A stretch of DNA of 64,000 nt, taken from positions 2,170,001 to 2,234,000 of the forward strand of contig NZ_JASZYU010000001.1 of the NCBI RefSeq assembly GCF_030316825.1. The letters run 5' to 3'. Positions 22,691 through 50,695 of this stretch are shown here, in pieces. Positions within the stretch are counted from its first letter, which is position 1. The number at the start of each line of letters is the position of its first letter. The translations under genes and the position numbers were made by a program. The notes below the pieces were generated by a model. It searched no databases. It had not been told where the DNA came from and saw only the letters and a program-made list of their open reading frames with translations. The stretch is from Variovorax fucosicus (GTDB lineage Bacteria > Pseudomonadota > Gammaproteobacteria > Burkholderiales > Burkholderiaceae_C).

Positions 22691-22712
22691 GGGCTGACAG
22701 ATTTGGGCCACG

Positions 22713-22726
22713 TGACAAATTTGTCA
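22713..22726. promoter_or_regulatory. 14-bp perfect palindrome, candidate PilR upstream activating site
   Basis: TGACAAATTTGTCA is perfectly self-complementary and lies about 100 bases upstream of the sigma-54 promoter of pilA, the right distance for an enhancer-binding protein. TGTC/GACA half-sites recur nearby (CTGACA at 22694). PilR of Pseudomonas binds clustered TGTC elements before pilA. Assignment by position and motif only. Confidence 0.5.
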
Positions 22727-22823
22727 TCACAGACGCGGTGGTTGCAACAGGTTGCGTCACACGCTGTAACACGGATGTGAACAAATCCACATTAAACGCG
22801 CTGATTGAGCCCTCCGCGGTGGG

Positions 22824-22838
22824 TGGCACAGATGCTGC
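22824..22838 (+). promoter_or_regulatory. Sigma-54 (-24/-12) promoter of pilA
   Basis: TGGCACAGATGCTGC: the invariant GG (22825-22826) and GC (22837-22838) are exactly 10 bases apart, and the -24 half TGGCAC is a perfect consensus. Transcription should start near 22850, giving a leader of about 50 bases before the pilA ATG. RpoN plus PilS/PilR control of pilA is standard in pseudomonads and many betaproteobacteria. Confidence 0.85.
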
Positions 22839-22898
22839 GGATAGAGCAGCGCACCGGGGGCTCTCCGGGCTCTATCAACCAACCTGGAGTTTTTTGAA

Positions 22899-23363
22899 AT
22901 GAACCGTCGTTCCATCGCACGCCGCGCACAAGCCGGCTTCACCCTTATCGAATTGATGATCGTCGTGGCGATCATCGGTATCCTGGCTGCTGTGGCTCTG
23001 CCGGCGTATCAGGACTACACGGTGCGCGCTCGCGTATCGGAAGCCTTGGTTTTGGCATCGGGCAACAAGGCCACCGTTGCAGAAAATGCTGCCAATACCG
23101 CATCGTCGCTCGCTCTTGGCGTCGCTGATTTTGCATCTGGTTCAGGCACGAAGAATGTCACCAGCATGACGACGAGCGCTACCAACGGCCAGATCGTCAT
23201 GGTTACTACTACCAATGCAGGTGGATTGACGCTGAATCTGACGCCATTGGCGAACGGTGCTGCTTTGGCCGCGAACACGCTTCCTGGCGGGCCAATCACT
23301 TGGACTTGCAAGGTTACCGATGCCACGAAAAACAAATTCGTCCCGTCGGAATGCCGAATCTAA
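22899..23363 (+). CDS. pilA: Type IV major pilin PilA
   Basis: 154 residues. Short leader of 13 residues ending Gly, cut by prepilin peptidase before Phe14 in [30 protein letters not shown]; Glu at mature +5 is present. A C-terminal disulfide loop is likely between the Cys in TWTCKV and the last Cys in SECRI. The middle is Ser/Thr/Ala/Asn-rich, offering acceptor residues for O-glycosylation. Transcribed from the sigma-54 promoter and closed by an intrinsic terminator. The neighbouring oligosaccharyltransferase suggests the mature pilin is glycosylated. Confidence 0.96.
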
Positions 23364-23378
23364 TTCAGGCGACTAATT

Positions 23379-23405
23379 AAAAAAGCCCCGCATGGGGCTT
23401 TTTTT
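23379..23405 (+). terminator. Intrinsic terminator after pilA
   Basis: AAAAAGCCCC-GCAT-GGGGCTTTTT: a perfect stem with a 4-base loop and a T-run. It lies only 22 bases before the start of the glycosyltransferase gene, so that gene depends on read-through or on a promoter inside this short gap. Confidence 0.93.
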
Positions 23406-23427
23406 GCGCCCAGGAATTTCAAGCGCT

Positions 23428-25170
23428 ATGGCCAATCATATTTCTCGCGTGTCTCTTGCCCCGGTATGGGTGGCGTTGGCTGTCGTTCTGTTGTCGCTGA
23501 CCTGGCTTCTCCCAAACCACGCGCGGCCATGGTCTTCATTTCATTCTGACGCTTGGATTGCTGTTGTCCTCGCAAGTATCAGCCTTGTGGTGTTGGTGCG
23601 CGCTACGCAAGGGCTGGTCTGGCATGGTTTGGCCTTGGTGGTCGCTTTTCTGGTGCCCTTGCCGTTTTTGCAACTCGCAACGGGACTATTGCCATTTGCA
23701 GGGCAGGCATGGATTGCGAGTGCCTATTTGCTTGGGTTATTTCTGGCCCTGTTGGTAGGTCAGCAGTGGCATGGTTGGCGCCAGGTCTGCATGGGCGATA
23801 TCCTGTTTCTAGCCATCGGGATAGCGTCGGTTGTTTCGGTCGGCCTCCAGCTTCAACAGTGGCTGGGGCTTACCCGAGACGGATCCTTGGACGTCTGGGT
23901 ATCGAGCGTGGACGGCGTGCGTCCTTATGCGAATATGGGCCAACCCAACCAGCTTGCCACTTTGCTGTTGTGGGGGATGCTTGCCGGCGGCTGGGGTGCA
24001 TGGCGCGGACATATAGGACGCGGGGCGGCACTATTGCTCGCAGCATTTCTCATTCTCGGTTTGGCCCTCACGCAATCACGCAGCGGTGCGATAGGCCTTG
24101 TTGCGATAGTGCTCGCGGTCTGGTGGTGGCGACCGCTATGGGCGAATGGGCGCACGCACCTTTACGCCAGCGGGTTGACTGCGTTGTATGGGGTGGTATT
24201 GCTGGCTTTGACGCCCCTTAGTCAACTTCTGATGCTCGAAGCGCCTGTTTCGATGACAGATCGCCTCACGGGCGAACTCAGGCCAAAGCTATGGCGCATG
24301 CTAGTAGACGCCGCCTGGCAGCGGCCTTTCAGTGGCTACGGTTGGAATGAAGTAATACCGGCGCAACTGAACGTAGCGGATCACCATCCCGCCATGGGCT
24401 ACCCCTTCTCGCAGTCGCACAATCTTTTTCTCGACTTCGTCTTGTGGGCGGGGCTCCCGGTTGGATTGCTGCTGACTGCCTGCGTGTTGGCGTGGTTGTT
24501 GACCGTGGCGCGGCGCGTGCGTCGCGCGCCGGAAGCTGTGTACTTCCTCTTTGTGATGGTCGTTGGAATTCACGCAATGCTGGAGTTCCCGCTGCATTAC
24601 GCCTACTGCTTGTTGCCTGTAGGCTTGGTGATGGGCGCTTTGAATGCAGAGTTGGGAATTTGGCGGATCAACCACAACCCCCACAGGGGGGGGAGATGGT
24701 TCCTGCTTGGCGTTTGGTGCCTTGGGGCGGTTTTGCTAGGAGTGGTTGTGCGGGACTATTTCAGGGCGGAAGCCGCGTATGCGGCTCTGCAGATTGAAAA
24801 TGCAGGTATCAAGAACAGTCGCCCTGTCCAGCCCCCTGACGTGTTAATCCTGACTCAGCTGCGCGAAGCGCAGCGCTTCATGAAGTTCGACCCGGCCGTT
24901 CGTGTGTCCCCGGCGGAGTTGCAATGGGCAAGGGATGTAACCCAAATAGCGCCCAGCTCGCGTAACTTCATGGCGCTTGCCGTCCTGCTAGGGCTCAATC
25001 GCCAAACAGAAGAGGCGCAGTCCTGGTTGGTAAAAATGTGCCGCGTCGTTCCTCGAGATCAGTGTGCTTCCGCGCCTGCAAAGTGGGCGCACGCACAAAA
25101 ACTGCACCCTTCTCTAGCTCCTGTTGCATGGCCCGCAAAGGCGGAATTGCATGGAGCAGCAGGGCATTAG
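23428..25170 (+). CDS. PglL/TfpO-family O-oligosaccharyltransferase (O-antigen ligase fold)
   Basis: 580 residues, start ATG 23428. About a dozen membrane helices fill residues 1-440, with periplasmic loops in between. The Wzy_C/PglL core is visible: YANMGQPNQLATLLLWG, LALTQSRSGAIGL, PFSGYGWNEVIPAQ, PFSQSHNLFLDFVLWAGLPVG (catalytic-type His loop) and MLEFPLHYAYCLLPVGLVMGA. A soluble C-terminal part (about 455-580, with a TPR-like end) matches PglL proteins rather than WaaL. It should move a lipid-linked oligosaccharide onto pilin Ser/Thr in the periplasm; proximity to pilA makes PilA the likely acceptor. A paralog is encoded at 48992-50695. It is AT-richer than the flanking core genes. Confidence 0.88.
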   Translation: MANHISRVSLAPVWVALAVVLLSLTWLLPNHARPWSSFHSDAWIAVVLASISLVVLVRATQGLVWHGLALVVAFLVPLPFLQLATGLLPFAGQAWIASAYLLGLFLALLVGQQWHGWRQVCMGDILFLAIGIASVVSVGLQLQQWLGLTRDGSLDVWVSSVDGVRPYANMGQPNQLATLLLWGMLAGGWGAWRGHIGRGAALLLAAFLILGLALTQSRSGAIGLVAIVLAVWWWRPLWANGRTHLYASGLTALYGVVLLALTPLSQLLMLEAPVSMTDRLTGELRPKLWRMLVDAAWQRPFSGYGWNEVIPAQLNVADHHPAMGYPFSQSHNLFLDFVLWAGLPVGLLLTACVLAWLLTVARRVRRAPEAVYFLFVMVVGIHAMLEFPLHYAYCLLPVGLVMGALNAELGIWRINHNPHRGGRWFLLGVWCLGAVLLGVVVRDYFRAEAAYAALQIENAGIKNSRPVQPPDVLILTQLREAQRFMKFDPAVRVSPAELQWARDVTQIAPSSRNFMALAVLLGLNRQTEEAQSWLVKMCRVVPRDQCASAPAKWAHAQKLHPSLAPVAWPAKAELHGAAGH

Positions 25171-27217: not shown

Positions 27218-27235
27218 TGATCTGAAACAAGCAAA

Positions 27236-28234
27236 ATGCTCTCCCAAAAAACGATTCTTATTACCGGTGGAACAGGCTCATTCGGACATACGTTTGTCGC
27301 AATGACACTGGCGAGATACAACCCCAGAAAAATCATCATCTACTCGCGCGACGAGATGAAACAATGGGAAATGGCAAAAAAGTATGAGGGGGATTCTCGA
27401 GTCCGTTTTTTTATCGGTGACGTACGTGATCGTGAGAGACTTTACCGCGCTCTAGATGGCGTGGATTATGTGGTGCATGCGGCGGCCACCAAAATTGTTC
27501 CCACCGCCGAATACAACCCTTTCGAATGTGTGAAGACAAACATCAATGGCGCAATGAATGTCATTGATGCCTGCATAGATAAAGGTGTTAAGCGGGCCGT
27601 GGCCTTGTCTACTGACAAGGCCAGTAGTCCAATCAATTTGTATGGTGCAACGAAACTTGCTTCTGACAAATTATTTGTGGCAGGAAATTCATACGCAGGC
27701 GGGCATGACACGCGTTTTGCCGTTGTCCGCTATGGAAATGTCATGGGCTCGCGTGGATCTGTAATTCCGTTTTTCTTGTCAATCAAAGAGAAAGGGGTTT
27801 TGCCGATCACTGATAGACGGATGACCCGCTTCATGATTTCTCTGGAGCAGGGGGTCGAGCTTGTTTGGCACACTTTCGCAGACATGCAGGGCGGAGAGAT
27901 CTATGTCAAAAAGATCCCGTCGATGGCCATCACCGATGTCGCTCAAGCAGTCGCCCCGGACGCGAAACTGGAGGTGATCGGCATCCGGCCTGGCGAAAAG
28001 CTGCACGAACAGATGATCAGCGCAGAGGATGCTCTTTACACTTACGAGTATCCGGAGCACTTCAAGATTCTTCCGGCCATTCATAAATGGAGCATCGATC
28101 CGAGCCGCATCAAGGACGGCACCAAGGTGCCTGAAGATTTTGTCTACGCCAGTGACAACAATCCAGAGTGGATGACTGTTGACATGCTGCGATCCTGGAT
28201 TCTCACCAATCAGCACAAGATCGGAAACTTCTGA
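27236..28234 (+). CDS. pseB: UDP-GlcNAc 4,6-dehydratase (inverting), PseB
   Basis: 332 residues, the small soluble 5-inverting type (FlaA1). NAD(P)-binding GGTGSFG near the N-terminus, STDKASSPINLYGATK with Tyr136 and Lys140, and RMTRFMISLEQGVELVW, a PseB hallmark. It starts the pseudaminic acid pathway by making UDP-2-acetamido-2,6-dideoxy-beta-L-arabino-hex-4-ulose. The first 600 bases are clearly AT-richer than the GC-rich pseC that follows, hinting at a separate origin or older transfer. It overlaps pseC by one base. Confidence 0.95.
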   Translation: MLSQKTILITGGTGSFGHTFVAMTLARYNPRKIIIYSRDEMKQWEMAKKYEGDSRVRFFIGDVRDRERLYRALDGVDYVVHAAATKIVPTAEYNPFECVKTNINGAMNVIDACIDKGVKRAVALSTDKASSPINLYGATKLASDKLFVAGNSYAGGHDTRFAVVRYGNVMGSRGSVIPFFLSIKEKGVLPITDRRMTRFMISLEQGVELVWHTFADMQGGEIYVKKIPSMAITDVAQAVAPDAKLEVIGIRPGEKLHEQMISAEDALYTYEYPEHFKILPAIHKWSIDPSRIKDGTKVPEDFVYASDNNPEWMTVDMLRSWILTNQHKIGNF

Positions 28235-29388
28235 TGTCGCACATTCCGTACGGCCGCCAGGACGTCATCGCTGACGACATCGCGGCCGTTACGTCAGTGC
28301 TGCATTCGGATTGGTTGACACAGGGGCCCATCGTGCCGCGCTTCGAGTACGCAGTGGCCGAGGTCTGCACCGCCAGCTATGCGGTCGCGGTTAATAGCGC
28401 CACCTCTGCACTCCACATCGCGTGCCTCGCCCTTGGACTGGGCCCGGGTGACTGGCTTTGGACCAGCACCATCACCTTCCTAGCTTCCGCCAACTGTGCG
28501 CTTTATTGCGGAGCGCGGGTTGATTTTGTAGACATTGATCCTCGCACTTATAACCTGTCCCCCGACGCCCTCGCCCGCAAACTGGCGCAGGCCCGAACCG
28601 AGAACCGCCTGCCCAAGATCGTTGTGCCTGTACACCTCGCCGGCCAGAGCTGCGACATGGCTGCGATGCAAGCGCTTAGCCGCGAATACGGCTTTCGTAT
28701 CATTGAAGATGCTTCACACGCCGTGGGCGGCCGCTACCAGGGTCTGCCGGTCGGCAATTGCCGCTTCAGCGATATCACGGTGTTCAGCTTCCATCCGGTG
28801 AAGATCATCACCAGTGCCGAAGGCGGAATGGCCCTGACGAATGACGTGCAACTCGCCGAACGCATGGCGCTGTTCCGAAGCCATGGCATGACGCGCGAAC
28901 CGGCTCAGATGAGCCGCGAGCCCGATGGCCCCTGGTACTACGAGCAGATCGAACTGGGCTTCAACTACCGCATGACCGAATTGCAGGCGGCGCTTGGCCT
29001 CAGCCAGACGGCGCGGCTGCACGACTATGTACGGCGGCGTCACGAGGTGGCCCGCCGCTATGACGAACTGCTCGCCAAGCTGCCGCTGACCACGCCGTGG
29101 CAGCATCCGGATTGCTATTCGGGGCTCCATCTGTACGTGGTACGTGTCGAGGCGACTCGACGCTTGGCCGTGTTCGAGGCGTTGCGCGCGCAGAACATCG
29201 GCGTTAACGTGCACTACATCCCCGTGCACATGCAGCCGTACTACCGACGGCTTGGCAGCACAAGCGGCACCTACCCTGAGGCCGAGCGCTACTACGCCGA
29301 GGCGATTAGCCTGCCGATGTACGCAACCCTCACCGATGACCAGCAGAATCGTGTGATTGATGTCTTGGACAAGGCATTGTTCGCGTGA
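28234..29388 (+). CDS. pseC: UDP-4-amino-4,6-dideoxy-N-acetyl-beta-L-altrosamine transaminase, PseC
   Basis: 384 residues, DegT/DnrJ/EryC1 fold. The N-terminus IPYGRQDVIADDIAAVTSVLHSDWLTQGP is characteristic of PseC. PLP is held by Lys190 in SFHPVKIITSAEGG, with DASHAVGGRY upstream; GFNYRMTELQAALGLSQ and INVHYIPVH-like segments (GVNVHYIPVHMQPYY) complete the family set. It aminates C4 of the PseB product. Position between pseB and pseF and overlaps on both sides support one operon. Confidence 0.95.
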   Translation: MSHIPYGRQDVIADDIAAVTSVLHSDWLTQGPIVPRFEYAVAEVCTASYAVAVNSATSALHIACLALGLGPGDWLWTSTITFLASANCALYCGARVDFVDIDPRTYNLSPDALARKLAQARTENRLPKIVVPVHLAGQSCDMAAMQALSREYGFRIIEDASHAVGGRYQGLPVGNCRFSDITVFSFHPVKIITSAEGGMALTNDVQLAERMALFRSHGMTREPAQMSREPDGPWYYEQIELGFNYRMTELQAALGLSQTARLHDYVRRRHEVARRYDELLAKLPLTTPWQHPDCYSGLHLYVVRVEATRRLAVFEALRAQNIGVNVHYIPVHMQPYYRRLGSTSGTYPEAERYYAEAISLPMYATLTDDQQNRVIDVLDKALFA

Positions 29389-30077
29389 AACTGGCCGTCA
29401 TTCCCGCGCGTGGCGGCAGCAAACGAATCCCGCGCAAGAACATCAAGCCGTTCTGCGGCAAGCCGATCATTGCGTGGTCGATTGCTGCCGCATACGACAG
29501 CGGCTGCTTCGACCGCGTGATCGTCTCGACCGACGACGCAGAGATCGCGCAGGTGGCTCGTGATGCGGGCGCCGAGGCGCCATTCGTGCGCCCGTTCGAG
29601 TTGTCTGACGACCATGCGGGCACGATCCCGGTCGTGCGCCACGCGATCGAGTGGCAGGCAGCCACTGGCGAGACTCCGAGTCTCGTGTGCTGTATCTACG
29701 CTACGGCGCCCTTTCTTCTGGCCGACGACATTCGGCGCGGCCTCGATGTGCTCGAGCGTAGCGGCAGCGACTTCGCCTTCTCGGTCGCAAAGTATCCGTC
29801 TCCGATCCAGCGGGCGTTTCGCACTGACGCTGCGGGCCGACTGGCGATGTTCAACCCCGAGCACTTCCAGACCCGCTCTCAAGACCTTGAGGAGGCCTAC
29901 TACGACGCCGGACAGTTCTACTGGGGGCGAGCGCCAGCGTGGCAGTCGGTCGAAACTCTGTTTGGCCCTGCTTCTGCGGCACTGGTGTTGGCACCGCATC
30001 GGGTGCAAGACATCGATACGTCGGACGACTGGGTGCGTGCCGAATGGATGTTCAAGGCCCTGCAGGCGGTGGCGTGA
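29385..30077 (+). CDS. pseF: Pseudaminic acid cytidylyltransferase, PseF
   Basis: 230 residues, starting at GTG 29385 within a GTGA overlap with pseC. NeuA/KdsB-like nucleotidyltransferase: the CTP loop IPARGGSKRIPRKNIKPFCGKPII, then IVSTDDAEIAQVA and the acidic metal site ending HRVQDIDTSDDW. It activates pseudaminic acid to CMP-Pse, the donor for a glycosyltransferase. It lies before pseG in the operon rather than last, an order also seen in other bacteria. Confidence 0.95.
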   Translation: MKLAVIPARGGSKRIPRKNIKPFCGKPIIAWSIAAAYDSGCFDRVIVSTDDAEIAQVARDAGAEAPFVRPFELSDDHAGTIPVVRHAIEWQAATGETPSLVCCIYATAPFLLADDIRRGLDVLERSGSDFAFSVAKYPSPIQRAFRTDAAGRLAMFNPEHFQTRSQDLEEAYYDAGQFYWGRAPAWQSVETLFGPASAALVLAPHRVQDIDTSDDWVRAEWMFKALQAVA

Positions 30078-31186
30078 CGGACCTCGCTGGTGCAACCGTG
30101 GTCTTCCGTGCCGACGCATCGCTGCAGATCGGCACCGGCCATGTCATGCGGTGCCTGGCGCTGGCGTCGGCGCTGAAGGAGCGGGGGGCGCAATGCCGGT
30201 TTGTTAGCCGCGCTCATGTCGGCCACCTGCTGGAATACATCGGCCGCCAAGGCTACGAAGTCGCGACTTTGCCGTTGACTCCCGCCGCACCAGTGGCGGT
30301 GTCCGATACGACGGCGCACGCGGGATGGCTGGGCTGTGACTGGCAGACTGACGCGCAGCAGACCATCGTAGCGCTGGGTGGCCGGCGGACTGACTGGATC
30401 GTTGTCGACCACTACGCGCTTGATGGGCGCTGGGAGGTAGAACTGCATGCCCACGCTGCGCACATGCTGGCGATCGATGATCTCGCCGACCGGTCGCATC
30501 GTTGCGAGTTACTGGTCGACCAGAACCTCGGCCGTCAAGCTTCGGACTATGAGCGGCTGGTGTCGTCAGGGTGCCGCGTCCTTGCCGGGCCCCGCTTCGC
30601 ACTCCTGCGTCGGGAGTTTGCCGCGTTGCGCGAGCGCAGCCTCCAGCGCCGAACCGAGCCGGTGCTTAGGCACCTACTGATCACGATGGGTGGGGTTGAT
30701 CAACCGAACGCCACCGAATCGGTCTTGCACGCGCTGCAGCGTTGTGATCTGCCGCCAGACTGTCGGCTCAGCGTCGTCATGGGCGCAGCCGCGCCCTGGC
30801 TCGAGAGCGTGCGCGTGCAGGCTGGCCGGATGCCTTGGCCGACCGAAGTGCTGGTCGATGTCGACGACATGGCGCAGCGCATGGTCGATAGCGACTTGGC
30901 GATCGGTGCAGCTGGTGGAACGGCGTGGGAACGCTGCTGTCTCGGGCTTCCCACGCTTCTAGTGGTGTTGGCCGATAATCAGGTTTCAGGTGCGAGGGCG
31001 CTCGAGGCCTGCGGCGCCGCCGTACTGCTCGGTGATGCGAATTCGGCGATGCACAGCCTTAGCGGCATCTTGAGTCGGCTGCTTCGAGGCGACGAACTCG
31101 ATGAGATGGCCGATGCCGCCAGCTGCGTCACTGACGGCCGTGGCGTTGCGCGCGTGTTGGCGGAGATGGTGACCCCCGATGTCTGA
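30074..31186 (+). CDS. pseG: UDP-2,4-diacetamido-2,4,6-trideoxy-beta-L-altropyranose hydrolase, PseG
   Basis: 370 residues from GTG 30074 (GTGA overlap with pseF). The opening ATVVFRADASLQIGTGHVMRCLALASALKERG contains the catalytic-type His of GHVMRC, and IVVDHYALDGRWE matches PseG. GT-B fold; the C-terminal half has GAAGGTAWERCCLGLPTLLVVLADNQ, the UDP-binding region. It removes UDP from the diacetamido sugar before the PseI condensation. Length is in the normal range for stand-alone PseG. Confidence 0.94.
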   Translation: MTDLAGATVVFRADASLQIGTGHVMRCLALASALKERGAQCRFVSRAHVGHLLEYIGRQGYEVATLPLTPAAPVAVSDTTAHAGWLGCDWQTDAQQTIVALGGRRTDWIVVDHYALDGRWEVELHAHAAHMLAIDDLADRSHRCELLVDQNLGRQASDYERLVSSGCRVLAGPRFALLRREFAALRERSLQRRTEPVLRHLLITMGGVDQPNATESVLHALQRCDLPPDCRLSVVMGAAAPWLESVRVQAGRMPWPTEVLVDVDDMAQRMVDSDLAIGAAGGTAWERCCLGLPTLLVVLADNQVSGARALEACGAAVLLGDANSAMHSLSGILSRLLRGDELDEMADAASCVTDGRGVARVLAEMVTPDV

Positions 31187-31706
31187 CAGCAATTCCGCAG
31201 TGGATCGTATCCGTCCGATGACTGGCGCGGACCTGACCCTTGTGCTCCAGTGGCGCAATCACCCCGACGTTCGACACAACATGTTCACGCAGCACGAAAT
31301 CGGCCTCGAGGAACATATTGCGTGGTTCGAACGCAGCGCCCGCGATCCAAGCCGTCATCTGCTGATATACGAGAAGGAAGAATTGCCGCTGGGCTTCGTC
31401 GGTCTGACCATGAGCGGCCATCCGCACGTCGCCGACTGGGGCTTCTATGTCGCCCCTGAAGCGCCTAAGGGAACCGGTCGCGCCATGGGCCGCCACGCGC
31501 TCGATCACGCCTTTGATGCCCTCGGGCTGCACAAGGTTTTCGGACGGGCGATTGCATACAACCAGCCCTCCATCAGCTTCCATGCGGCCATGGGTTTCCG
31601 CCAGGAGGGGATCCTGCGCGACCAGTATTTCGATGGTCAGCGCTACCACGCGGTGGTCTGTTTCGGCCTCCTCGAATACGAATGGTCCTCGGCTTCGAGG
31701 GGGTGA
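31179..31706 (+). CDS. pseH: UDP-4-amino-sugar N-acetyltransferase, PseH
   Basis: 175 residues, GNAT fold. The N-terminus IRPMTGADLTLVLQWRNHPDVRHNMFTQHEI is typical of PseH; acetyl-CoA site around APKGTGRAMGRHALDHAF, and a C-terminal NQPSISFHAAMGFRQEGILRDQYFDGQRYHAVVCFGLL. It acetylates the 4-amino group of the PseC product. It overlaps pseG by 8 bases and precedes pseI by 5, completing the biosynthetic set. Confidence 0.93.
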   Translation: MSDSNSAVDRIRPMTGADLTLVLQWRNHPDVRHNMFTQHEIGLEEHIAWFERSARDPSRHLLIYEKEELPLGFVGLTMSGHPHVADWGFYVAPEAPKGTGRAMGRHALDHAFDALGLHKVFGRAIAYNQPSISFHAAMGFRQEGILRDQYFDGQRYHAVVCFGLLEYEWSSASRG

Positions 31707-31711
31707 ACACC

Positions 31712-35309: not shown

Positions 35310-35330
35310 CGCCTGGCGGTGAATCGAACC

Positions 35331-37390: not shown

Positions 37391-37392
37391 CT

Positions 37393-41534: not shown

Positions 41535-41541
41535 GGCATCG

Positions 41542-42162
41542 ATGAAGACGACGATTCGACGGCAAGCCGGTTCCACATTGATCGAGGCGCTGGTCGCCCT
41601 GCTGATATTTGCATTGGGCATGGTCGGCATCGCGGGCCTGATGGCGTCTGCGCTCAAGTACCAGGTGGGCAACGAGGCTCGGCTCAACGTTTCGGCCGCC
41701 ATCAACGACCTGTCGGAACGCATCCGCAGCAACGTCACAGGCGCTAAAGGCTTCAACGCCATCATCGGCGGCGTCACCACGACCGGCACCGGCTACGACT
41801 TGGCGCAAACCTATGCGACACAGGTGGCAGCAGCAGCTTCGACCTACAGTCCAGACTGTTCCGCAGCCAGCTGCACGCCAGCCCAACTGGCCGCGTACGA
41901 CCAGGCCAAGTGGCGCAACTTGTTGCGCGCCACGTTGCCTGGCGGCGCCGGCTACATCACTGGCGACGTTACGACGGGCTTCACCGTCAGCGTGATGTGG
42001 TTCGACAAGAACGCCGTCGACAGCGACGACGTCGCGCTGGCCAAGAAGAATTGCACCGATTTGGTCGCCGACCAGAACAAAGCCGGCGCGCGCTTCTGCT
42101 GCCCGGCGAACGCGGCCGTGCCAGACGGCGTGCGTTGCTACACGACCAGGGTGCTGCCATGA
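41542..42162 (+). CDS. pilV: Minor pilin PilV
   Basis: 206 residues. Prepilin motif QAG-STLIEALVALLIFALGMVGIAGL: the mature protein would begin with Ser rather than the usual Phe, which is unusual, while Glu at +5 is kept. The Glu and the LIEALVALLIFALGMVG helix are typical of PilV. The rest is a Cys-containing domain. It starts 7 bases after fimT and overlaps pilW by 4 bases. Confidence 0.9.
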   Translation: MKTTIRRQAGSTLIEALVALLIFALGMVGIAGLMASALKYQVGNEARLNVSAAINDLSERIRSNVTGAKGFNAIIGGVTTTGTGYDLAQTYATQVAAAASTYSPDCSAASCTPAQLAAYDQAKWRNLLRATLPGGAGYITGDVTTGFTVSVMWFDKNAVDSDDVALAKKNCTDLVADQNKAGARFCCPANAAVPDGVRCYTTRVLP

Positions 42163-43163
42163 ATCGTCTGTCCCGCCAGCGCGGCTTGACGCTGATCGAA
42201 CTGCTCATCTCCATCACCATCGGGCTGTTGCTCGCGGCGGCGGCCAGCTACCTTTTTGTTGCGACCAACCGGATTTCGTCGGTGGTCGAAACAAAGTCAC
42301 AGCAACAGGAAAGTGCTGCGATCGTCCTTGACATCATTGGCCGCGATCTCAAGAACGCAGGGTTCTACCCGGCGGATTTTCCGACCACCACGGTTTCCAG
42401 CAAGTTCCAGGGTACCTACGCCAACGTGGTGTCAGCCACCGTCGTTGCCTACAACCAGGGCATTTTCGGGTGCACCGGTGGTCAGTTCGACGTTGCAACC
42501 GGCGGGTGCCCCACACCGGTGACGAGTGAACCCGATTCGCTGGTCATCAACTATTTTTCCGCGGACAATTTTTCGACGAATGGTGTCGGAACTCGCAGGG
42601 ATTGCTTGAGCCAGAGCGTGGAGTTGGCCACGTTCGGCGGCTCCACATACAACCAGGCACGCGCCGGCTCCGCCACCGGCAGCACCGATACGGTCGATCT
42701 GCCGCTGTTTATCAGCAATGCCTACAGCCTGGGCGCTAATACGACCTACACCGTGAACAACGGGCAGACAGTCACGACGCGCAGCTTTCTGTGTGCCGGC
42801 AACGGGCCCAACGCAAACCCCTACCAGCCACTCGTTTCGGGCATCACCCAGCTCCGCTTCAGGTATGGCGTGGCCGAGGCGTCGACGCTCGAATCGCCCG
42901 CGCGGTTCTACACGGCGACCGCGGTCTCGGCCCTGCCTTCCGTTGATATCAACGGTGACATCAAGACCGGCTGGCAACGCGTGGTTGCGGTGCAGGTTTG
43001 CGTGCTCTCGAAAACCCTGGACGCGGCCGCGCGGCAGACAGCTTCGGGCAGCTACGTCGATTGCGACGGCACCACCGTGAACTACACGACGACTGACCGG
43101 GCCATCTATCGCCAGCAGACGCGGATTTTCGGCATTCGCAACAACCTCACCAAGACGTTCTGA
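42159..43163 (+). CDS. pilW: Minor pilin PilW
   Basis: 334 residues from ATG 42159. Prepilin site [33 protein letters not shown], with Glu at +5, followed by a long body of the PilW type (ends RQQTRIFGIRNNLTKTF). Part of the tip complex that holds PilY1. Overlap with pilV and close spacing to pilX show a single operon. Confidence 0.92.
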   Translation: MNRLSRQRGLTLIELLISITIGLLLAAAASYLFVATNRISSVVETKSQQQESAAIVLDIIGRDLKNAGFYPADFPTTTVSSKFQGTYANVVSATVVAYNQGIFGCTGGQFDVATGGCPTPVTSEPDSLVINYFSADNFSTNGVGTRRDCLSQSVELATFGGSTYNQARAGSATGSTDTVDLPLFISNAYSLGANTTYTVNNGQTVTTRSFLCAGNGPNANPYQPLVSGITQLRFRYGVAEASTLESPARFYTATAVSALPSVDINGDIKTGWQRVVAVQVCVLSKTLDAAARQTASGSYVDCDGTTVNYTTTDRAIYRQQTRIFGIRNNLTKTF

Positions 43164-43168
43164 TAGCC

Positions 43169-43786
43169 ATGAAGCGATCCATATCCCAGCGCGGCGTATC
43201 GCTGATCATTGTCCTGATTTTTCTGGTGATCCTGTCTGGCACCGCGGCGTTCACGGTCAGGCGAATCCTGTTCGGTGAAGACATGGCACGCAATCTGCTC
43301 GACATCGAGGTCGCCCGGCAGGCCGCGGAAGCGGCATTGCGCGACGCCGAACGCGACATCATGCTCGCCGGCGGCGTCACCGGCGCCACATGCGACCGCG
43401 GCGCCGACCGCCCCATCAAGTCGGCCTACAGCGAGCCCAACTTCGGTGCCACCTGCCCACGCGGGCAGTGCCGGTTTGGCGAGCAAACACCTGCGGCGTA
43501 CTACGCCGCCAGCAACTTCACTGCCGGTACCAATCCGGAGCCGTGGTGGCCTGGTGCCGCTACCAAATGGGCGACAACACCGCCGACCACCTGCACGTTC
43601 GTGGGCGGCGTGCCCCTGGGCATGTTCACCGCCACACCCGGCGTCAAGGGCGTGTCGCGCCAGCCCGAATACATGATCGAGTACATGCAGCGCGGCGACG
43701 ACATCTACTTCCGCAATACCGCGCGCGGCTGGGGGTTGGACAAAAACACCGAGGTGGTTCTGCAGAGCTACTTCAAACGAGGCTGA
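43169..43786 (+). CDS. pilX: Minor pilin PilX
   Basis: 205 residues. The N-terminus QRG-VSLIIVLIFLVILSGTAAF matches PilX_N: a Gly cleavage site but Ile in place of Glu at +5. This lack of Glu5 is usual for PilX and its GspK counterpart, which sit at the pilus tip. The body has four Cys residues (TCDRG, TCPRGQC, TTCTF). It is followed 10 bases later by pilY1. Confidence 0.9.
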   Translation: MKRSISQRGVSLIIVLIFLVILSGTAAFTVRRILFGEDMARNLLDIEVARQAAEAALRDAERDIMLAGGVTGATCDRGADRPIKSAYSEPNFGATCPRGQCRFGEQTPAAYYAASNFTAGTNPEPWWPGAATKWATTPPTTCTFVGGVPLGMFTATPGVKGVSRQPEYMIEYMQRGDDIYFRNTARGWGLDKNTEVVLQSYFKRG

Positions 43787-43796: not shown

Positions 43797-46700
43797 ATGA
43801 AAACAATGTTCCTGAAAATCGTCGGCACTGTGCTGCTGTTGTGGTGCACCGTGGCCGGCGCGCAGATCCAGGCTGTGCCGCCCAACATCAGCCCCGATCC
43901 CAACCTGCCCATGGTGATGCTGAACGTCTCGAAGGACTTCAGCATGTTCAGCCGCGCCTATACCGACTATGAAGACCTGAATTTCGACGGAGCCGTCGAC
44001 TACACCTTCATGCCGGCATTCAAGTACTACGGGTACTTCGATTCAACGAAGTGCTATACGCACGACGGCAACAAGTTCGTTCCTTCCACCACTGGCGCCA
44101 CGGTCGAAAGCGGCAAGTACTACTGCACTGCCGATTCCTACTGGAGTGGCAACTTCCTGAACTGGGCAACGATGTCCCGTATGGACGTGTTGCGCAAGAT
44201 TCTTTATGGCGGCCTGCGCTCGACGGACAGCACCACCGACACTGTTCTCGAGTTGTCGTTCGTGCCGCGCAACAGTCAGGCCTTTGTCAAGTTCTACAAC
44301 GGCACTGACCTGAATCGCCTCACGCCGTTCAACTACAGCGACGGCCTGACCCTGTGCCGAAGGCACCAGAACCCGACGGGCGACAGCGCATCGCAGACCA
44401 CCACACTGCTGCCCGTTCTGCGCACTGCGCGCGGCAACTACCTCCTCTGGAACATGACCGAGGTCAAGACCTGCAACTGGACCCAGGAGATCAGCTACAC
44501 CTGGAAGCCGGCTACGGTGACCTTCATGTCGAACAACTACCAGGGTATCGGTGGCACCACGGTAGCGCACAAGAGCGGTACGCCCGACAACCCGGCGAAC
44601 TCGACGAGTTCCAAGGAATATATAGCGCGCGTTCAGGCCTGCGTGTCCAGCAGCATCGGCGACGAAAGCTGCAAGCAGTACGGCACGGTGTGGAAGCCGC
44701 GCGGACTGCTCAACGAGTTTGGCGAAAGCGACAACTACGGCAACAAGGCGGCCAAGGCGGAATTCGCCCTCATGCTCGGCTCGTTCGATTCGAACCTTGA
44801 CGGCGGTGTGCTGCGCAAGAACATGAGCGAGATCAACGACGAAATCGATTCGAGCACCGGGCAGTTCAAGTACCTGAGCGGCGGCACGGCGGGGATCATC
44901 CAGGCACTCAGCAAGCTGCGGCTGTATGGGTACAACCCCAACAACGGTAATTACTCTGAATCATGCAACTCGCGTGCTATCACGAATGGTCATTGTCCGT
45001 CCTGGGGCAATCCGATCGGTGAAATCGTGACGGAGGGATTGCGCTATTTCGCCGGAAAAACGCGTTACTTCAATCCCGGGACCAGCATGGACGACGAGTT
45101 CGGTTTGCCCAAGCCAAGCTGGACCGACCCGCTGGTCAGCAATCCAACCTACACGAGCGGCAAGACGCGCGCAGCGCTGTATGGCAAGAACGTGTGCCGG
45201 CCGCTCAACATGGTCACCATTTCAAGTGGTGTGAGTACGTTCGACGATGACCAGGTCAATGGCGCGTTTACTGATATCGGCGGGAATGGTGTTGCGGCTC
45301 AACTCACGCGGGACATCGGCACACAGGAAAATCTGTACGGCAGCGTTCGCCTGATCGGCAACAACAACGGTGTCAACACTCCTGGAGACTTGTGCACCGG
45401 CAAGACGATCAGCGATCTGTCAGTGCTGACCGGCCTGTGCCCGGAGGCGCCCAACATGAAGGGTACGTATCTGGGTGCCGGTGCAGCGTATTGGGCTCAC
45501 ATCAACCAGATTCGCACCGATCTCAACCCCCTTCCGGCCAACGCCAACGCGGAAGCCCTGAAAGTTCGGCAGTACGCCGTCTCGATGGCTGGTGGCTCTG
45601 CATCCATCCAGATTCCGGTGCCCGGCACATCGCCTACAAAATACGTCTACATCACTCCCGCCAGCCTGGACGCGAGCATCAGCGCCAGCAACCCGCTGGC
45701 CGGCAACATGGTGGACTTCAAGGTGCTCAACCGCGCCGCTGATGGCTCTTCGGGCAGTTTTGTGGTGCTTTGGCAGCACTACACGCTTGGCGAAGACCAG
45801 GATCAGGACATGCTCGGATCCATTCGCTATGAAACGGACACCAGCACCAGTCCTCCAACGCTCCGGGTCTACACCCAGACGCTGGAATCCGACACGGGCT
45901 CATCCGCGCCCTATGCGTTTGGATACACGCTGGTAGGCACCCAACGAGACGGCAGCCACTTCCACAGCGGTATCAATAACTACGTCTCGACCGAGTCGCC
46001 TGCGCCAACATATTCGGCCTCCAGCGTGCAGGCGGCGCCCAGAAATGCCCTGGACAAGTGTTACCTCAACGACGATGGATCGACCTGGACTGGATGGGAC
46101 TACACAAAGGCACCTCGGCTCTGCGTGAAAGTCGGCACTGCTTTTGTCAAGGGTGAGACGATGCTGAGCTACCAGATGGTTGGGTCGCTCGACGCAGTTA
46201 TACGGGATCCCCTGTGGTACATGGCCAAGTATGGCGGCTTCAAGGATTCCAAGATTCCGACTCTCAAGCCAGATGCGGTCTCCAAGTGGGACACCAAGCG
46301 GGCCGATGGCGCGCTCTGCGGCGGCGCATCGCAACCTGCTTGCGCCGACGGCATTCCGGACAACTATTTCCTGGCGCGCCGGCCCGACTTGCTCGAAGAC
46401 TCGCTTCGCCAGGTGTTCGCCGACATCACGGCCAATTCCAACTCTGCACCCGCTGTGTCGCGCCCCGACCTGCGCAACGGCGATTACAAGTACGTGGCTA
46501 CCTTCTCCCCGCAAGACCTGCATGGCGAACTGACTGCCTACAAGCTGGACACCAGCGGCAATTTCGAAACCTCACCAAGCGCGTTGGGTCATGTGAACCT
46601 GACCAACACGGCGAACGCGTCACGCCGAATCATCACCAATCTGGATGCCGTCACTGGCACCGCATTCACGACCACCAGCATTGCGAGCACGCCAGCCGGC

Positions 46701-48404
46701 AGCGCCGGTGCGGTCTATCGTACGGCGCTCGAAAGTTCGACCACTCGGCAGGATGCGTTGATCAATTACCTTCGCGGCGACCGCACCAATGAGGCCGCGG
46801 GCCTTCAGTTCCGCGTCCGGAATGCGACCTCCGTCATGGGCGGTGTCATCAATTCGAATCCGTGGCTGCAGGATCGCCCGAGTGCCAACTACTTCGGCGC
46901 CAACTTCACCGGCTACGGCACCTTCAAGACGGCCCAGAAGCAGCGCGACAAGTTGATCTGGGTGGGTGCGGCCGACGGCATGCTGCACGGTTTCACATCC
47001 GATACGTTGACGCCGGTGATGTCGTATGTGCCTCGCCCCCTCGTATCGCGCCTGAAGGACGTTGCAAACGCCACAATCACCGACGTCAACGCCTACATGG
47101 ACGGCTCGCCGTTCACCGGTGATGTGATGCTGAGCACCGCTGGCACGAGCTGGAAGAGCTATCTTTTCTCCAGCCTTGGCCGCGGCGGCAAAGGTATCTT
47201 CGCGCTCGACGTGACGGCCGATACCGACAGCACGTCGAACCGCCTGTCGGAGGGGAACGCAGCCAGCATCTTCAAGTGGCAGTTCACGTCGGCCGATGAC
47301 GCCGACCTTGGCTACGTGCTGTCCGAAGGCGGTATTCATCCGATCACCAACCAGGCGTCCCAGATTGCGAAGATGCCGAACGGCAAGTTCGCCGTTTTGT
47401 TCGGCAACGGCTACGGAAGCACTGCGACCAACACGAACGGCAAGGCCGTGCTCTACATCCTCTTCGTGAACGGGCCCGGCACCACGGGCGTCTGGACGGA
47501 AGGCACGCACTACCGCAAGCTCGTTGTCGACACCGGAACTGGCAACGGGCTGATGCAACCGACCTGGATCGACACCAACGACGACGGCATTGCCGACACC
47601 ATCTATGCCGGCGACCTCAAGGGGCAAATGTGGAAGTTCGACGTGTCGAGCACGGATCCGGCGGCCTGGTCGGTGGCGTACGGCGGAGTGCCCCTCTACG
47701 CCGCGAAGGATGGCGCCACGATTCCCGCGGCCTTGCCCATCACCGCCGCGCCCGCCGTGCGGTTCCATCCGCAAGGCGGTCAGGTGGTGGTGTTCGGCAC
47801 CGGAAAATCGGTTCTTTCCGGCGACTTCCCCGATGTGAGCCGCAGCCAGCGTGTCTTCGGCATCTGGGACAAGCCGTATGCGGCCGCCAGTGCGTTGCCC
47901 ACCGGGTTGAGCGAGCTGCAGCAGCGAAGCTGGTCCTTCGACTCGACGACCGGCGCCATCGTGCAAACCAACACCACAGCCATCAACTGGGCTACCAAGA
48001 AGGGCTGGTATCTGGACATTCCGTTGTCGTCCGGCATGGTGCTGGGCAATCTTCTCTACTCTGCGGTCAGCAAGGACATCGGCATTCCGCTGGTCTACAA
48101 GAAGGCGACCACCGGAGCAGTCTGCAACGACAACGCAGAGGGTGCCTATGTGCAGATCAATGCCGTGACAGGGCTTGCCACTGCGAACATCTTTGGCGTG
48201 ACGAGTTCCACGGCGGGCATCGTGCTGGGCTTGACCGGGCTCGATCAGCGCTTCCGCGTGACGGAAGACTCCACGTCGCGCTGCACGACCGGGCTGAACT
48301 GCCAGCGCATTCTGGGTCAGAACACCGACGTCAATACAAAGCAAAACAGCACCCAGTCGCGCATCTTCTGGCGCGAAATTCCGGGTCTCAAGACGGCGAA
48401 CTGA
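43797..48404 (+). CDS. pilY1: Pilus tip adhesin/assembly protein PilY1
   Basis: 1535 residues, the largest gene of the window. Signal peptide MKTMFLKIVGTVLLLWCTVAGA (about 1-22) then a long N-terminal region without a recognisable von Willebrand A/MIDAS motif. The C-terminal PilY1 beta-propeller (about 1000-1500) includes the EF-hand-like calcium loop DTNDDGIADTIYAGD at 1259-1273, whose binding and release of Ca2+ controls extension and retraction in Pseudomonas. Propeller strands such as KLIWVGAADGMLHGF and YLFSSLGRGGKGIFALDV are clear. It binds the minor pilin complex encoded by its neighbours. Confidence 0.95.
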   Translation: MKTMFLKIVGTVLLLWCTVAGAQIQAVPPNISPDPNLPMVMLNVSKDFSMFSRAYTDYEDLNFDGAVDYTFMPAFKYYGYFDSTKCYTHDGNKFVPSTTGATVESGKYYCTADSYWSGNFLNWATMSRMDVLRKILYGGLRSTDSTTDTVLELSFVPRNSQAFVKFYNGTDLNRLTPFNYSDGLTLCRRHQNPTGDSASQTTTLLPVLRTARGNYLLWNMTEVKTCNWTQEISYTWKPATVTFMSNNYQGIGGTTVAHKSGTPDNPANSTSSKEYIARVQACVSSSIGDESCKQYGTVWKPRGLLNEFGESDNYGNKAAKAEFALMLGSFDSNLDGGVLRKNMSEINDEIDSSTGQFKYLSGGTAGIIQALSKLRLYGYNPNNGNYSESCNSRAITNGHCPSWGNPIGEIVTEGLRYFAGKTRYFNPGTSMDDEFGLPKPSWTDPLVSNPTYTSGKTRAALYGKNVCRPLNMVTISSGVSTFDDDQVNGAFTDIGGNGVAAQLTRDIGTQENLYGSVRLIGNNNGVNTPGDLCTGKTISDLSVLTGLCPEAPNMKGTYLGAGAAYWAHINQIRTDLNPLPANANAEALKVRQYAVSMAGGSASIQIPVPGTSPTKYVYITPASLDASISASNPLAGNMVDFKVLNRAADGSSGSFVVLWQHYTLGEDQDQDMLGSIRYETDTSTSPPTLRVYTQTLESDTGSSAPYAFGYTLVGTQRDGSHFHSGINNYVSTESPAPTYSASSVQAAPRNALDKCYLNDDGSTWTGWDYTKAPRLCVKVGTAFVKGETMLSYQMVGSLDAVIRDPLWYMAKYGGFKDSKIPTLKPDAVSKWDTKRADGALCGGASQPACADGIPDNYFLARRPDLLEDSLRQVFADITANSNSAPAVSRPDLRNGDYKYVATFSPQDLHGELTAYKLDTSGNFETSPSALGHVNLTNTANASRRIITNLDAVTGTAFTTTSIASTPAGSAGAVYRTALESSTTRQDALINYLRGDRTNEAAGLQFRVRNATSVMGGVINSNPWLQDRPSANYFGANFTGYGTFKTAQKQRDKLIWVGAADGMLHGFTSDTLTPVMSYVPRPLVSRLKDVANATITDVNAYMDGSPFTGDVMLSTAGTSWKSYLFSSLGRGGKGIFALDVTADTDSTSNRLSEGNAASIFKWQFTSADDADLGYVLSEGGIHPITNQASQIAKMPNGKFAVLFGNGYGSTATNTNGKAVLYILFVNGPGTTGVWTEGTHYRKLVVDTGTGNGLMQPTWIDTNDDGIADTIYAGDLKGQMWKFDVSSTDPAAWSVAYGGVPLYAAKDGATIPAALPITAAPAVRFHPQGGQVVVFGTGKSVLSGDFPDVSRSQRVFGIWDKPYAAASALPTGLSELQQRSWSFDSTTGAIVQTNTTAINWATKKGWYLDIPLSSGMVLGNLLYSAVSKDIGIPLVYKKATTGAVCNDNAEGAYVQINAVTGLATANIFGVTSSTAGIVLGLTGLDQRFRVTEDSTSRCTTGLNCQRILGQNTDVNTKQNSTQSRIFWREIPGLKTAN

Positions 48405-48414
48405 GGCACCTCGC

Positions 48415-48918
48415 ATGACACGCAACCAATTTCGCCAACAAGCCGGCTTCACGTTGATTGAACTGATGATCACGGTCGCCATCGTGGCGATCCTCGCCTC
48501 CATTGCGTACCCGAGCTACAAAGAGTCCATTGCCAAGGGCAAGAGGGCGCAGGCCAAGACGGTGCTTTCGCAAGCGCAGCAGTGGCTGGAGCGCAATTAC
48601 AGCGAAAACTATCGTTACGACCAGACTGCGGCGGCTGTGGCCATCAACAACACGGCAGGCGGGCTGTTCGCGGCCCAGTTCGGCGTCGCACCGTTTCCCT
48701 CGGAAGGTACTGCGGCCTACACCATCACGATCGACACTTCGGCTTCGAGCGCGGGCAACCAGTACACACTGACTGCAACGCGGACCGGTGCCATGAACAA
48801 TGATCGCTGCGGCGATTTCACCGTCACGAACACCGGGCGCAAGGCGGTGGTCAACCATTCCGGGTTCGGGACGGGCGGTGTTGCCGATCTCGAGGCCAGT
48901 CGAAAGTGCTGGGGCTGA
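48415..48918 (+). CDS. pilE: Minor pilin PilE
   Basis: 167 residues. Prepilin site [30 protein letters not shown] with Glu at +5, followed by the PilE-type body (LSQAQQWLERNYSENYRYD) and a C-terminal Cys pair (DRCGDF, RKCWG). Closes the minor pilin operon in the order seen in Pseudomonas and other betaproteobacteria. It lies 74 bases before the second PglL-like gene. Confidence 0.92.
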   Translation: MTRNQFRQQAGFTLIELMITVAIVAILASIAYPSYKESIAKGKRAQAKTVLSQAQQWLERNYSENYRYDQTAAAVAINNTAGGLFAAQFGVAPFPSEGTAAYTITIDTSASSAGNQYTLTATRTGAMNNDRCGDFTVTNTGRKAVVNHSGFGTGGVADLEASRKCWG

Positions 48919-48991
48919 CGCACAGGAGCATTGACCCGCGCTGAGAGCTTCGCGCCTGCGCTGGCGAGCCAGGACGGCAGAATGCGCTCGC

Positions 48992-50695
48992 ATGAGTTCG
49001 CAAACCTCGTTGCCCGATACCCGCCTCCCGTTGCGCGCCTGGGGCAGTGCGACTGCGGGGTTCGTGGCACTGCCGTTCGTCTTTCCCCTCATCGCAGGCC
49101 CTTCAGTCAGCGCCTGGCAACTGCTTGTTTCCTGGTGTTGCGCCATTGCGCTGATGATTCTGGCGCCACGGGCATCCCCATGGTGCGGATTGCTGGCCTG
49201 GCTGGCGCTCGTCGCCAGCGAGATCGCCCTGTCGTCCCGCATCGTCGATCCTGGTGTGTGGTTGCCTGCGTGCGCGGCGCTGGTGGCGATGGCACTGGCG
49301 GCGGCCGCCGGCGCCGGATGGTCGCGGCATGATCCGGCGGGTCGGGCGCCCTTCGCAACCGGCCTGCTGTTGGCCGGCCTCCTCAGCGCCCTCCTCGGCC
49401 TGCTCCAGTACTACGGCCTGGCCGAGCCCCTCCGCCCCTGGACGACCCAACCCGAGCTCGGCCAGGCGTACGGCAATCTGCGCCAGCGCAACCAGTTCGC
49501 CACGCTGATCAGCATGGCGCTCATCTCGGCGCTCTGGTTGCATGCCGCGTATGACGGGCGCCGTGTGCGGGTGGCGCTGCTGTGGGCGATGGGTTGGCTG
49601 CTGCTGGCGGCGGCCGCTTCGACCTCGCGCACGGGGCTGCTGCAGCTGCTGGGCATCAGCGGCGTGGCGGCCTTCATCGCCTGGCGAGAGCGGCGCCCGG
49701 GGGGCGCGGTCGTCGCCGCTGCCTACCGGTTGCCTCACCCGGCCTGGCTGCTGGCGATGGTGCCGGCCTACTTTGCCGCTGCCTGGCTGCTGCCGCACCT
49801 GGCCAGCAGCGGCGTCGAAGACATGCTGCACCGGCTGCGCCACGGCGCACCCGACGATCACAGCCGGCTGGTGCTGTGGCACAACGTGCTGACGCTGATC
49901 GCCCGCCACCCCTTGGCCGGCTGGGGCTGGGGCGAACTCGGCTACGCCCACTACATCACGCTCTACCCGGGCCCGCGTTTCGTCGAGATTCTGGACAACG
50001 CGCACAACCTGCCGCTGCACCTGGCCGTCGAACTTGGCATTCCGGCCGCCGCGCTGATCTGCGGCGGCTTCATCTGGCTGGTGCTGGCGGCGCGGCCCTG
50101 GCGCGAGCGCGATCCGACGCGGCTCATGGCCTGGGGCCTGCTGGCCGTGATCGTGCTGCACAGCTTGCTTGAATACCCGCTCTGGTACGGGCCGTTCCAG
50201 CTGGTGTTCGGCCTTTGCCTGGGGCTGCTGTGGCCGGCACCGCGTGCGGCGAGCGCACCGGCAAAAAAACCGGCAGGCCCCGGCTGGAGGGCGCTGGCAG
50301 CCATTGTCTTGATGGCAATCGTCGGCTACGCCGGCTGGGACTACACGCGCATCAGCCAGATCTACCTGCCGCGCGAAGAACGCCTGCCCGCATACCGCGA
50401 CGACACGCTCGCCAAGCTGCAGGGTTCCTGGCTGTTTGCCAGCCAGGTGCGCTTTGCCGAGCTGTCGCTGACGCCGGTCACGCAGGCCAACGCGGCCGAA
50501 ATCCATGCGATGGCCGAGCGCGCCTTGCACTTTTCGCCGGAGCCGCGCGTCATCGTCAAGCTGATCGAAAGCGCCGCGCTGCTCGGGCGCGATGACGAGG
50601 CGTTTGCGCAGGCCGAACGCTTCCGGCGTGCGTTTCCCGCCGACTATGCGCGCTGGCTCACAGGCCAGCCGGCGGATGCACCACCGGCGCCGTGA
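48992..50695 (+). CDS. Second PglL-like O-oligosaccharyltransferase / O-antigen ligase
   Basis: 567 residues from ATG 48992. Roughly a dozen membrane helices through residue 430, with the PglL/Wzy_C core: [84 protein letters not shown] and [27 protein letters not shown] soluble C-terminal region (about 455-567) is shared with PglL. It is GC-rich like the chromosome core, unlike the paralog at 23428, so the two copies have different histories. Its last 38 bases overlap convergent moaC. Acceptor may be a minor pilin or another protein. Confidence 0.87.

Follow-up and report, generated by a model that had tools for sequence, protein, structure and literature searches.

The system considered here is a type IV pilin locus of Variovorax fucosicus that encloses genes for pseudaminic acid (Pse) and for glycan assembly, within a 64,000-nucleotide stretch of genome (contig NZ_JASZYU010000001.1, positions 2,170,001 to 2,234,000; hereafter the window). 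Several described systems resemble it in part. The pilin glycan of Pseudomonas aeruginosa 1244 contains a pseudaminate, and in the a-type flagellin glycosylation island of P. aeruginosa, which targets flagellin without lipid-linked transfer, the sugar genes close to the filament gene are polymorphic. The Neisseria pgl system initiates its glycan with an amino sugar and a phosphoglycosyl transferase, as here, and has to our knowledge no nonulosonate pathway. It further resembles the arrangement proposed below in its PglL, its pilin acceptor and its polymorphic glycan (PMC12645811), but its pglL does not adjoin pilE (PMC3643930). In P. aeruginosa 1244, a single O-antigen unit is attached to the C-terminal Ser of the pilin (PMC1976384). 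The likeness to that system lies in an oligosaccharyltransferase gene adjoining pilA and, there, a short glycan on PilA; the P. aeruginosa enzyme is without PglL motifs (PMC3643930), whereas the Variovorax PilA has no C-terminal Ser and its glycan genes are local. TfpO and TfpW glycosylate P. aeruginosa pilins, which thereby evade pilus phages (PMC11841053). Acinetobacter O-glycosylation likewise moves glycans with highly variable outer sugars, some of them Pse, to proteins, but it is the capsule K locus, and not an operon at a pilin locus, that supplies the units (PMC12645811). Lastly, mass spectrometry of type IV pilus glycans of Thermus thermophilus led to the assignment of a Pse derivative; a pilin-linked Pse cluster is not described in the passages considered (PMC7203116).

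PglL genes adjoin a pilin gene in 21 of the 31 cases listed by Schulz et al. 2013 (PMC3643930), several of them from Burkholderiales, and Polaromonas JS666 appears twice in that table with consecutive protein numbers; a later review describes tight linkage as uncommon for PglL (PMC12645811). The Variovorax locus shows the same PglL motifs and the same adjacency. What sets it apart is that the locus itself contains a glycan-synthesis operon, one that differs from genome to genome; the passages of PMC3643930 considered place none beside a pilin.

We consider it quite probable that the window holds a dedicated type IV pilin O-glycosylation operon that follows pilA as an exchangeable cassette. A tight block of 17 genes on one strand (Table 1) begins with pilA (22899) and closes with pgt, the phosphoglycosyl transferase gene (end 40776). 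All 16 junctions, with the starts chosen, fall between -25 and +32 bp; a further 140 bp separate the end of pgt from the start of the first fimT open reading frame (ORF). Start codons are uncertain for pseG, mt1 and fimT, candidates being listed for the first two. The arrangement is not due to chance, since it recurs in other genomes. Genes were identified by Pfam and NCBIfam scans of the window proteins, with nearest structures taken from the Protein Data Bank (PDB). These scans recovered, at or near its assigned position, every gene named in an earlier, sequence-only reading of this DNA, although the identity of the ORF listed there as an oxygenase is weak. The PglF/WbpM-like dehydratase, the DegT aminotransferase and gtX were absent from that list.

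The extent of the arrangement was examined in 100 sampled Variovorax genomes. A near full-length pglL1 relative (E <= 1e-48) was found in 12, and a DegT of at least 78% identity in 10, in all ten at this locus; further DegT matches at 45-46% in genomes G064, G065 and G013 sit elsewhere. The ten genomes share one frame in the order metalloB-pilA-pglL1-wbpM-interior-mt2-degT-pgt-minor pilins-pglL2. Identity to the window in the nine relatives is 78-85% for degT and 59-63% for pgt, and a metalloB homologue lies upstream of pilA in all 11 Variovorax relatives fetched. Exceptions at pglL2 are G069 (OV329), with no separate match, and G028, whose stretch ends before the gene. In G097 (Variovorax sp. 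WS11, locus L036), pglL2 homology falls in two frames, a real split or a sequencing error, with pglL1 intact. Genome G038 carries pglL1 with no matches to the window's glycan genes, and G094 carries it with a different gene set and a distant, reversed pgt.

The interiors of the ten frames differ: three hold Pse genes, five a di-N-acetyl-uronate-like set and two (G005, G028) neither. PseI occurs in 3 of the 100 Variovorax genomes, in all three at the pilin locus beside pilA/pglL. A UDP-sugar dehydrogenase cluster is present in five of the ten frames and a GFO_IDH_MocA cluster in four of those five. The G041 interior, in which dehydrogenase and GFO_IDH_MocA genes are followed by a hexapeptide transferase gene and a second DegT gene, has a make-up that we take to be that of the di-N-acetyl-uronic acid pathway, WbpABDE; the label given to all five is based on this one scanned set plus clustering. 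An MBOAT acyltransferase occurs in one interior (G095). Cluster counts can be low, because ORFs in relatives were called by a greedy script that sometimes picks a reverse-strand ORF. The operon behind pilA is an exchangeable cassette with a constant initiating-sugar module and interchanged outer-sugar genes. The sequence-only reading asked if pilA and fimT border the block in every case. The answer is yes in part: DegT is at the locus in all ten holders, but the minor-pilin operon is forward in the window (G000), G097 and G028 and reversed in the other nine of twelve, and seven of the ten interiors hold something other than Pse.

The bacillosamine pathway genes PglF, PglE, PglD and PglC encode a dehydratase, a 4-aminotransferase, a 4-N-acetyltransferase and a phosphoglycosyl transferase; a dehydratase, a DegT protein and a phosphoglycosyl transferase together are the type of initiating module used by PglL systems. 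PglF-like and PglC-like genes are present in the window. Specifically, the solved structure nearest to WbpM is WlaL 5bju (E 2.4e-90), which we take to be Campylobacter PglF, and the PDB entry nearest to Pgt is the diNAcBac-1-phosphate transferase (PglC) 8e37. The aminotransferase is by far nearest to ArnB (E 3e-100), with 4ztc, presumably PglE, well behind at E 3e-28. No acetyltransferase besides PseH was recognised in the block by Pfam scans. A UDP-GlcNAc-derived module would supply the C2-acetamido reducing sugar that PglL typically needs (PMC12645811). For the methyltransferase Mt2, N-methyltransferases and CalS10 were weak PDB matches, and its gene precedes degT in all ten Variovorax frames. 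An mt2-degT pair was also observed near Pse genes outside pilin loci, at L231 (G356), L250 (G493), L144-L145 (G370) and L141 (G173), a recurrence which suggests a linked step.

The CMP-Pse pathway is complete, all six of PseB, PseC, PseF, PseG, PseH and PseI scoring above the curated NCBIfam equivalog cut-offs, and PseI is single copy in the host genome. No tblastn match to pseH was obtained in the two other Variovorax Pse cassettes (G062, G097), and in G097 genes for WbqC, a methyltransferase and a beta-lactamase-fold protein lie between pseG and pseI; the acyl groups on Pse may therefore differ.

The protein GtX gave no significant Pfam, NCBIfam or PDB match, the PDB matches being at chance level; a homologue showed a sub-threshold Capsule_synth match (E 0.014). 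Its motifs HPNW and GSAALEAG may reflect a likeness to CMP-sugar transferases. We propose it as a candidate Pse transferase on grounds of these motifs and of co-occurrence: in family-wide samples (299 genomes for gtX, 399 for PseI), gtX was found in seven, one of them weak (G190), and PseI was present in all six confident gtX genomes versus 38 of 399 overall (E <= 1e-90). In G305 the gtX module (L223) and the Pse cluster (L146-L147) are on different contigs. GtX is a candidate founding member of an unassigned Pse transferase family. Spread of the gene by plasmids or viruses was considered and rejected, as gtX had no match in plasmids and none of 14 pattern matches in viral contigs was a relative. 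The flippase-like protein has no significant Pfam match and a homologue in all eight gtX loci read. The oxygenase-like protein has no Pfam match itself and only chance-level PDB matches; of the two homologues scanned, one showed PhyH below threshold, at E=0.02. An HxD and a distal His, invariant in all four sequences of this protein, are what we take to be an Fe/2-oxoglutarate motif, and glycan decoration is a possible role.

PglL1 and PglL2 both match PglL_A, Wzy_C and Wzy_C_2 above the Pfam cut-offs. The published PglL/WaaL residues (Q178, N180, R224, R298, P313, G316, G318, H349, H400, E404 and P406, N. meningitidis numbering; PMC3643930) are present 11 out of 11 in window pglL1, in window pglL2 and in all 12 pglL1 sequences (window and 11 relatives), columns having been equated by residue and spacing, without an aligned Neisseria sequence. 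Domains and residues together place both predicted proteins in the PglL class of O-oligosaccharyltransferases. The TfpO/PilO class is described as pairing a pilin with a C-terminal Ser and an enzyme without PglL_A and Wzy_C_2 (PMC12645811). The Variovorax pair falls outside it: PilA ends in ECRI, with no terminal Ser, so that the C-terminal-Ser rule does not apply, and PglL_A and Wzy_C_2 are present. Six pilins of the window type (window, G097, G069, G013, G095 and G041) share an Ala-rich loop motif ENAANxAS, which reads ENAANTAS in the window, and Ser56 (mature PilA numbering) is a candidate glycosylation site.

Pairwise distances of pilA and pglL1 across the ten frame genomes correlate with a rho of 0.79, a value reached in none of 2000 shuffles. 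Control pairs gave -0.03 for metalloB-PilA, 0.43 for PglL1-WbpM (also neighbours) and 0.61 for metalloB-DegT. From these values pilA and pglL1 move together, and degT follows the border gene metalloB. The co-movement is illustrated by G062, in which pilA is 51% and pglL1 30% identical to the window, the values for pseB, pseC, pseF, pseI and gtX being 85-93% and that for pseG 57%. An extra protein of about 460 aa is encoded between pilA and pglL1 in G005 (L047:2716-4095) and G062 (L050); scanned for G005 only, it matches Wzy_C there and is possibly a third transferase or a polymerase.

Gene content, gene order, linkage, the differences between genomes and the lack of a flagellin match are observations. 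In the scheme that we favour, the enzyme activities, the order of the sugars, the acceptor residue and the transfer by PglL1 to PilA are predictions made from genes and their context. The WbpM-like dehydratase and DegT would produce a UDP-linked 4-amino-2-acetamido-trideoxyhexose, perhaps methylated by Mt2 at the stage of the UDP-amino sugar, and Pgt would place the amino sugar on undecaprenyl phosphate. GT2 and GtX would lengthen the lipid-linked glycan, GtX most likely adding Pse from the CMP-Pse made by PseBCFGHI, and Mt1 and the oxygenase-like protein would decorate it. The flippase would then turn the glycan to the periplasm, where PglL1 would move it, as a short glycan, onto a Ser/Thr of the PilA loop. 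No recognisable Wzy polymerase or chain-length gene was found in the block and, the two PglLs aside, no polymerase at the locus, from which it is natural to assume a short glycan that is moved en bloc.

Table 1 Features of the pilin locus and its borders, in window coordinates
Feature	Position	Strand	Basis
metalloB, metallo-beta-lactamase-fold protein, left locus border	21857..22690	+	Pfam Lactamase_B_2
pilA, type IV pilin	22899..23363	+	Pfam Pilin, N_methyl
pglL1, predicted O-oligosaccharyltransferase	23392..25170	+	PglL_A, Wzy_C, Wzy_C_2
wbpM, UDP-GlcNAc 4,6-dehydratase of PglF/WbpM type, 671 aa	25202..27217	+	Polysacc_synt_2; 5bju
pseB	27236..28234	+	TIGR03589 539.6 bits, cut-off 407.75
pseC	28234..29388	+	TIGR03588 548.9, cut-off 423.5
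pseF	29385..30077	+	TIGR03584 324.5, cut-off 205.7
pseG, start codon uncertain	30074..31186	+	TIGR03590 297.6, cut-off 153.55
pseH	31179..31706	+	TIGR03585 111.2, cut-off 93.1
pseI	31682..32767	+	TIGR03586 489.8, cut-off 340.25; PDB 8h2c
gtX, orphan 525-aa protein, candidate Pse transferase	32764..34341	+	genomic co-occurrence
oxygenase-like protein, candidate Fe/2-oxoglutarate PhyH-like	34374..35309	+	weak: sub-threshold PhyH in homologue
flippase-like membrane protein, putative Wzx role	35319..36626	+	no significant Pfam match
mt1, methyltransferase 1, start uncertain	about 36632..37390	+	Methyltransf_11
GT2 glycosyltransferase	37387..38262	+	Glycos_transf_2, E 1.1e-32
mt2, methyltransferase 2	38275..39006	+	Methyltransf_25
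degT, sugar aminotransferase	39011..40174	+	DegT_DnrJ_EryC1; nearest PDB ArnB-type 8sng
pgt, PglC-type phosphoglycosyl transferase	about 40171..40776	+	Bac_transf; PDB 8e37
fimT, pilV-position gene, pilW, pilX (minor pilins)	40947..43786	+	GspH, N_methyl, PilW, PilX
pilY1	43797..48404	+	T4P_PilY1
pilE/ComP_DUS-type pilin	48415..48918	+	ComP_DUS, N_methyl
pglL2, second predicted O-oligosaccharyltransferase	48992..50695	+	PglL_A, Wzy_C, Wzy_C_2
conserved ORF, right locus border	50592..51155	+	without Pfam or NCBIfam match

The minor-pilin operon has the full set FimT/PilV/PilW/PilX/PilY1/PilE, five with their own Pfam matches and PilV by N_methyl and position only. Promoter-like elements (none, against 5.9 expected from shuffles) and terminator-like elements (18, against 18.3) between 22500 and 41600 were not used. 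A CHASE2-type adenylate/guanylate cyclase gene lies upstream of the locus (19569-21860).

Twenty cassette-free Variovorax loci of about 20 kb each, from 45 genomes with only weak PglL matches, gave no match to wbpM, degT, pgt or pse genes. pglL2 and the right-border gene were present in all 20, the latter on the same strand and downstream of pglL2, beyond the minor-pilin operon in G058 and G060. The order was pilA, minor pilins, pglL2 in five of the seven loci with both metalloB and pilA in view (G052, G008, G025, G001 and G020) and pilA, pglL2, minor pilins in two (G058, G060). In the wider family, two peptide patterns yielded 185 pglL1 relatives, of which the best 80 were kept; the 79 loci compared come from these and extend no more than 10 kb to either side. 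Among these best loci, pilA was matched in 70, wbpM in six (all six Variovorax) and metalloB in 31. A pglL1 and a pglL2-like gene stand in tandem, 108-5148 bp apart, in 34 of the 79, none of them Variovorax; the glycan operon thus sits between two transferases that adjoin elsewhere. One such tandem (L099) is on a contig of a metagenome-assembled genome labelled Akkermansia muciniphila, which we suspect to be a mis-binned betaproteobacterial contig.

A number of observations weigh against a dedicated pilin glycan. Other genera carry the pse-gtX-flippase set at a distance from pilin genes, which means that the enzymes present do not by themselves establish the pilin as target, and GtX, the flippase and the oxygenase-like protein are without significant family match. 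Both metalloB and pilA were in view in only 7 of the 20 cassette-free loci. WbpM also correlates with PilA (0.40) as well as with PglL1 in the ten frames, and the pilA-pglL1 correlation is down to 0.21 when 28 family loci are taken, no better than the 0.28 of metalloB-pilA, so that the pairing is not distinctive at family depth. PglL2, also at the locus, could be the transferase, and PglL enzymes often act on many proteins (PMC12645811).

The last two points bear on the alternative that survives best, which we nevertheless regard as unlikely: general O-glycosylation, in which PglL1 and/or PglL2 put the cassette glycan on many periplasmic proteins, including PilA. PglL-class enzymes are called general and loosely linked to their targets (PMC12645811), the locus has two of them and pglL2 persists in all 20 cassette-free loci. 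However, pglL1 heads all ten cassettes and co-varies with pilA in the ten, and two cassette holders are irregular at pglL2, OV329 having no separate match at the locus and WS11 carrying it in two frames.

That the cassette builds an O-antigen, capsule or exopolysaccharide, its adjacency to pilA being incidental, is improbable to a greater degree. It draws on the loci of other genera. pilA, pilE and pglL had no match in any of 37 non-Variovorax PseI loci (8.5-38 kb read each); flagellin-type matches, sought with E. coli FliC, FliD and FliS probes only and in stretches of which several stop at contig ends, were seen in four, which leaves 33 with neither flagellin nor pilin matches alongside. The five non-Variovorax gtX loci had the flippase in five and an oxygenase-like gene in the cluster in four, and pse genes alongside in four; the stretches covered gave no match to a pilin, and the remaining neighbours resemble sugar-nucleotide/polysaccharide genes, judged without a Pfam scan. 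The Pse module thus exists in other contexts, and the pilin locus probably acquired it by recruitment, a direction that we infer. Against a surface polymer stand the block's want of a recognisable polymerase or chain-length gene, the pilA-pglL1 linkage repeated in ten genomes and the presence of other Wzy_C proteins and phosphoglycosyl transferases elsewhere in the genome. The host genome (5.8 Mb, 16 contigs, scored 100% complete) has four Wzy_C proteins, two of them outside the locus, and three Bac_transf proteins, Pgt, another on C1 and one on C7. The last and the C7 Wzy_C protein are some 5 kb apart, a proximity that hints at a separate polysaccharide locus on C7. PilY1 occurs twice, at this locus and on C9.

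A recently acquired, unexpressed or non-functional island is very improbable: GC content, 0.49-0.66 per kilobase across 23-49 kb, is mostly below that of the flanks and the frame occurs in only 10 of 100 Variovorax, but all 17 reading frames are uninterrupted, spacing is tight and the identities of degT and pgt given above are kept in nine relatives. A flagellin glycosylation cluster displaced into the pilus locus would be in keeping with Pse as a classical flagellin sugar and with the four PseI loci that have flagellin-type matches. It was rejected as next to impossible, unless this genome has a flagellin that is unrecognisable or unassembled, since Flagellin_N has no match in this complete-scored genome and the same search matches 4 of 14 control genomes.

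The dedicated pilin glycan remains well supported, by genomic context and not by chemistry. The sequence-only reading had claimed such a Pse-containing pilus glycan, and context sides with it: no flagellin match, a single PseI, a block set between pilA-pglL1 and pglL2 without a Wzy polymerase, and pilin-locus Pse genes in 3 of 3 Variovorax against 0 of 37 others. The Pse module as such is not pilus-specific, being off-pilin in other genera. A bolder version, about which we have more doubt than confidence, is that of a serotype-like Variovorax pilus locus. The pilin and its own PglL would be exchanged as a cognate pair, the kept module would make the protein-linked amino sugar and acidic outer sets (Pse or di-N-acetyl-uronate-like) would be swapped, driven by pilus-binding phages or other recognition, with an unusual methylated 4-amino group on the initiating sugar set by mt2-degT.

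The novelty claimed in that reading is narrower than stated. Searches of the open-access literature found no paper by title on Variovorax pilin glycosylation or Variovorax pseudaminic acid, none on pilin glycosylation in Comamonadaceae and, among the titles listed, none describing a pilin-locus Pse operon, which is weak evidence of absence; PglL linked to pilin and Pse on type IV pili are known already, and the newer element is a pilin-locus glycan operon that is both dedicated and exchangeable. If true, the finding would constitute a self-contained pilin glycosylation operon, a single block holding the acceptor, the transferase, the enzymes for sugar nucleotides, the initiator and the flippase. 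With outer sugars exchanged in nature over a constant initiating module, one could test what portion of the glycan is recognised by a PglL and whether phage pressure goes with variation in pilus glycans.

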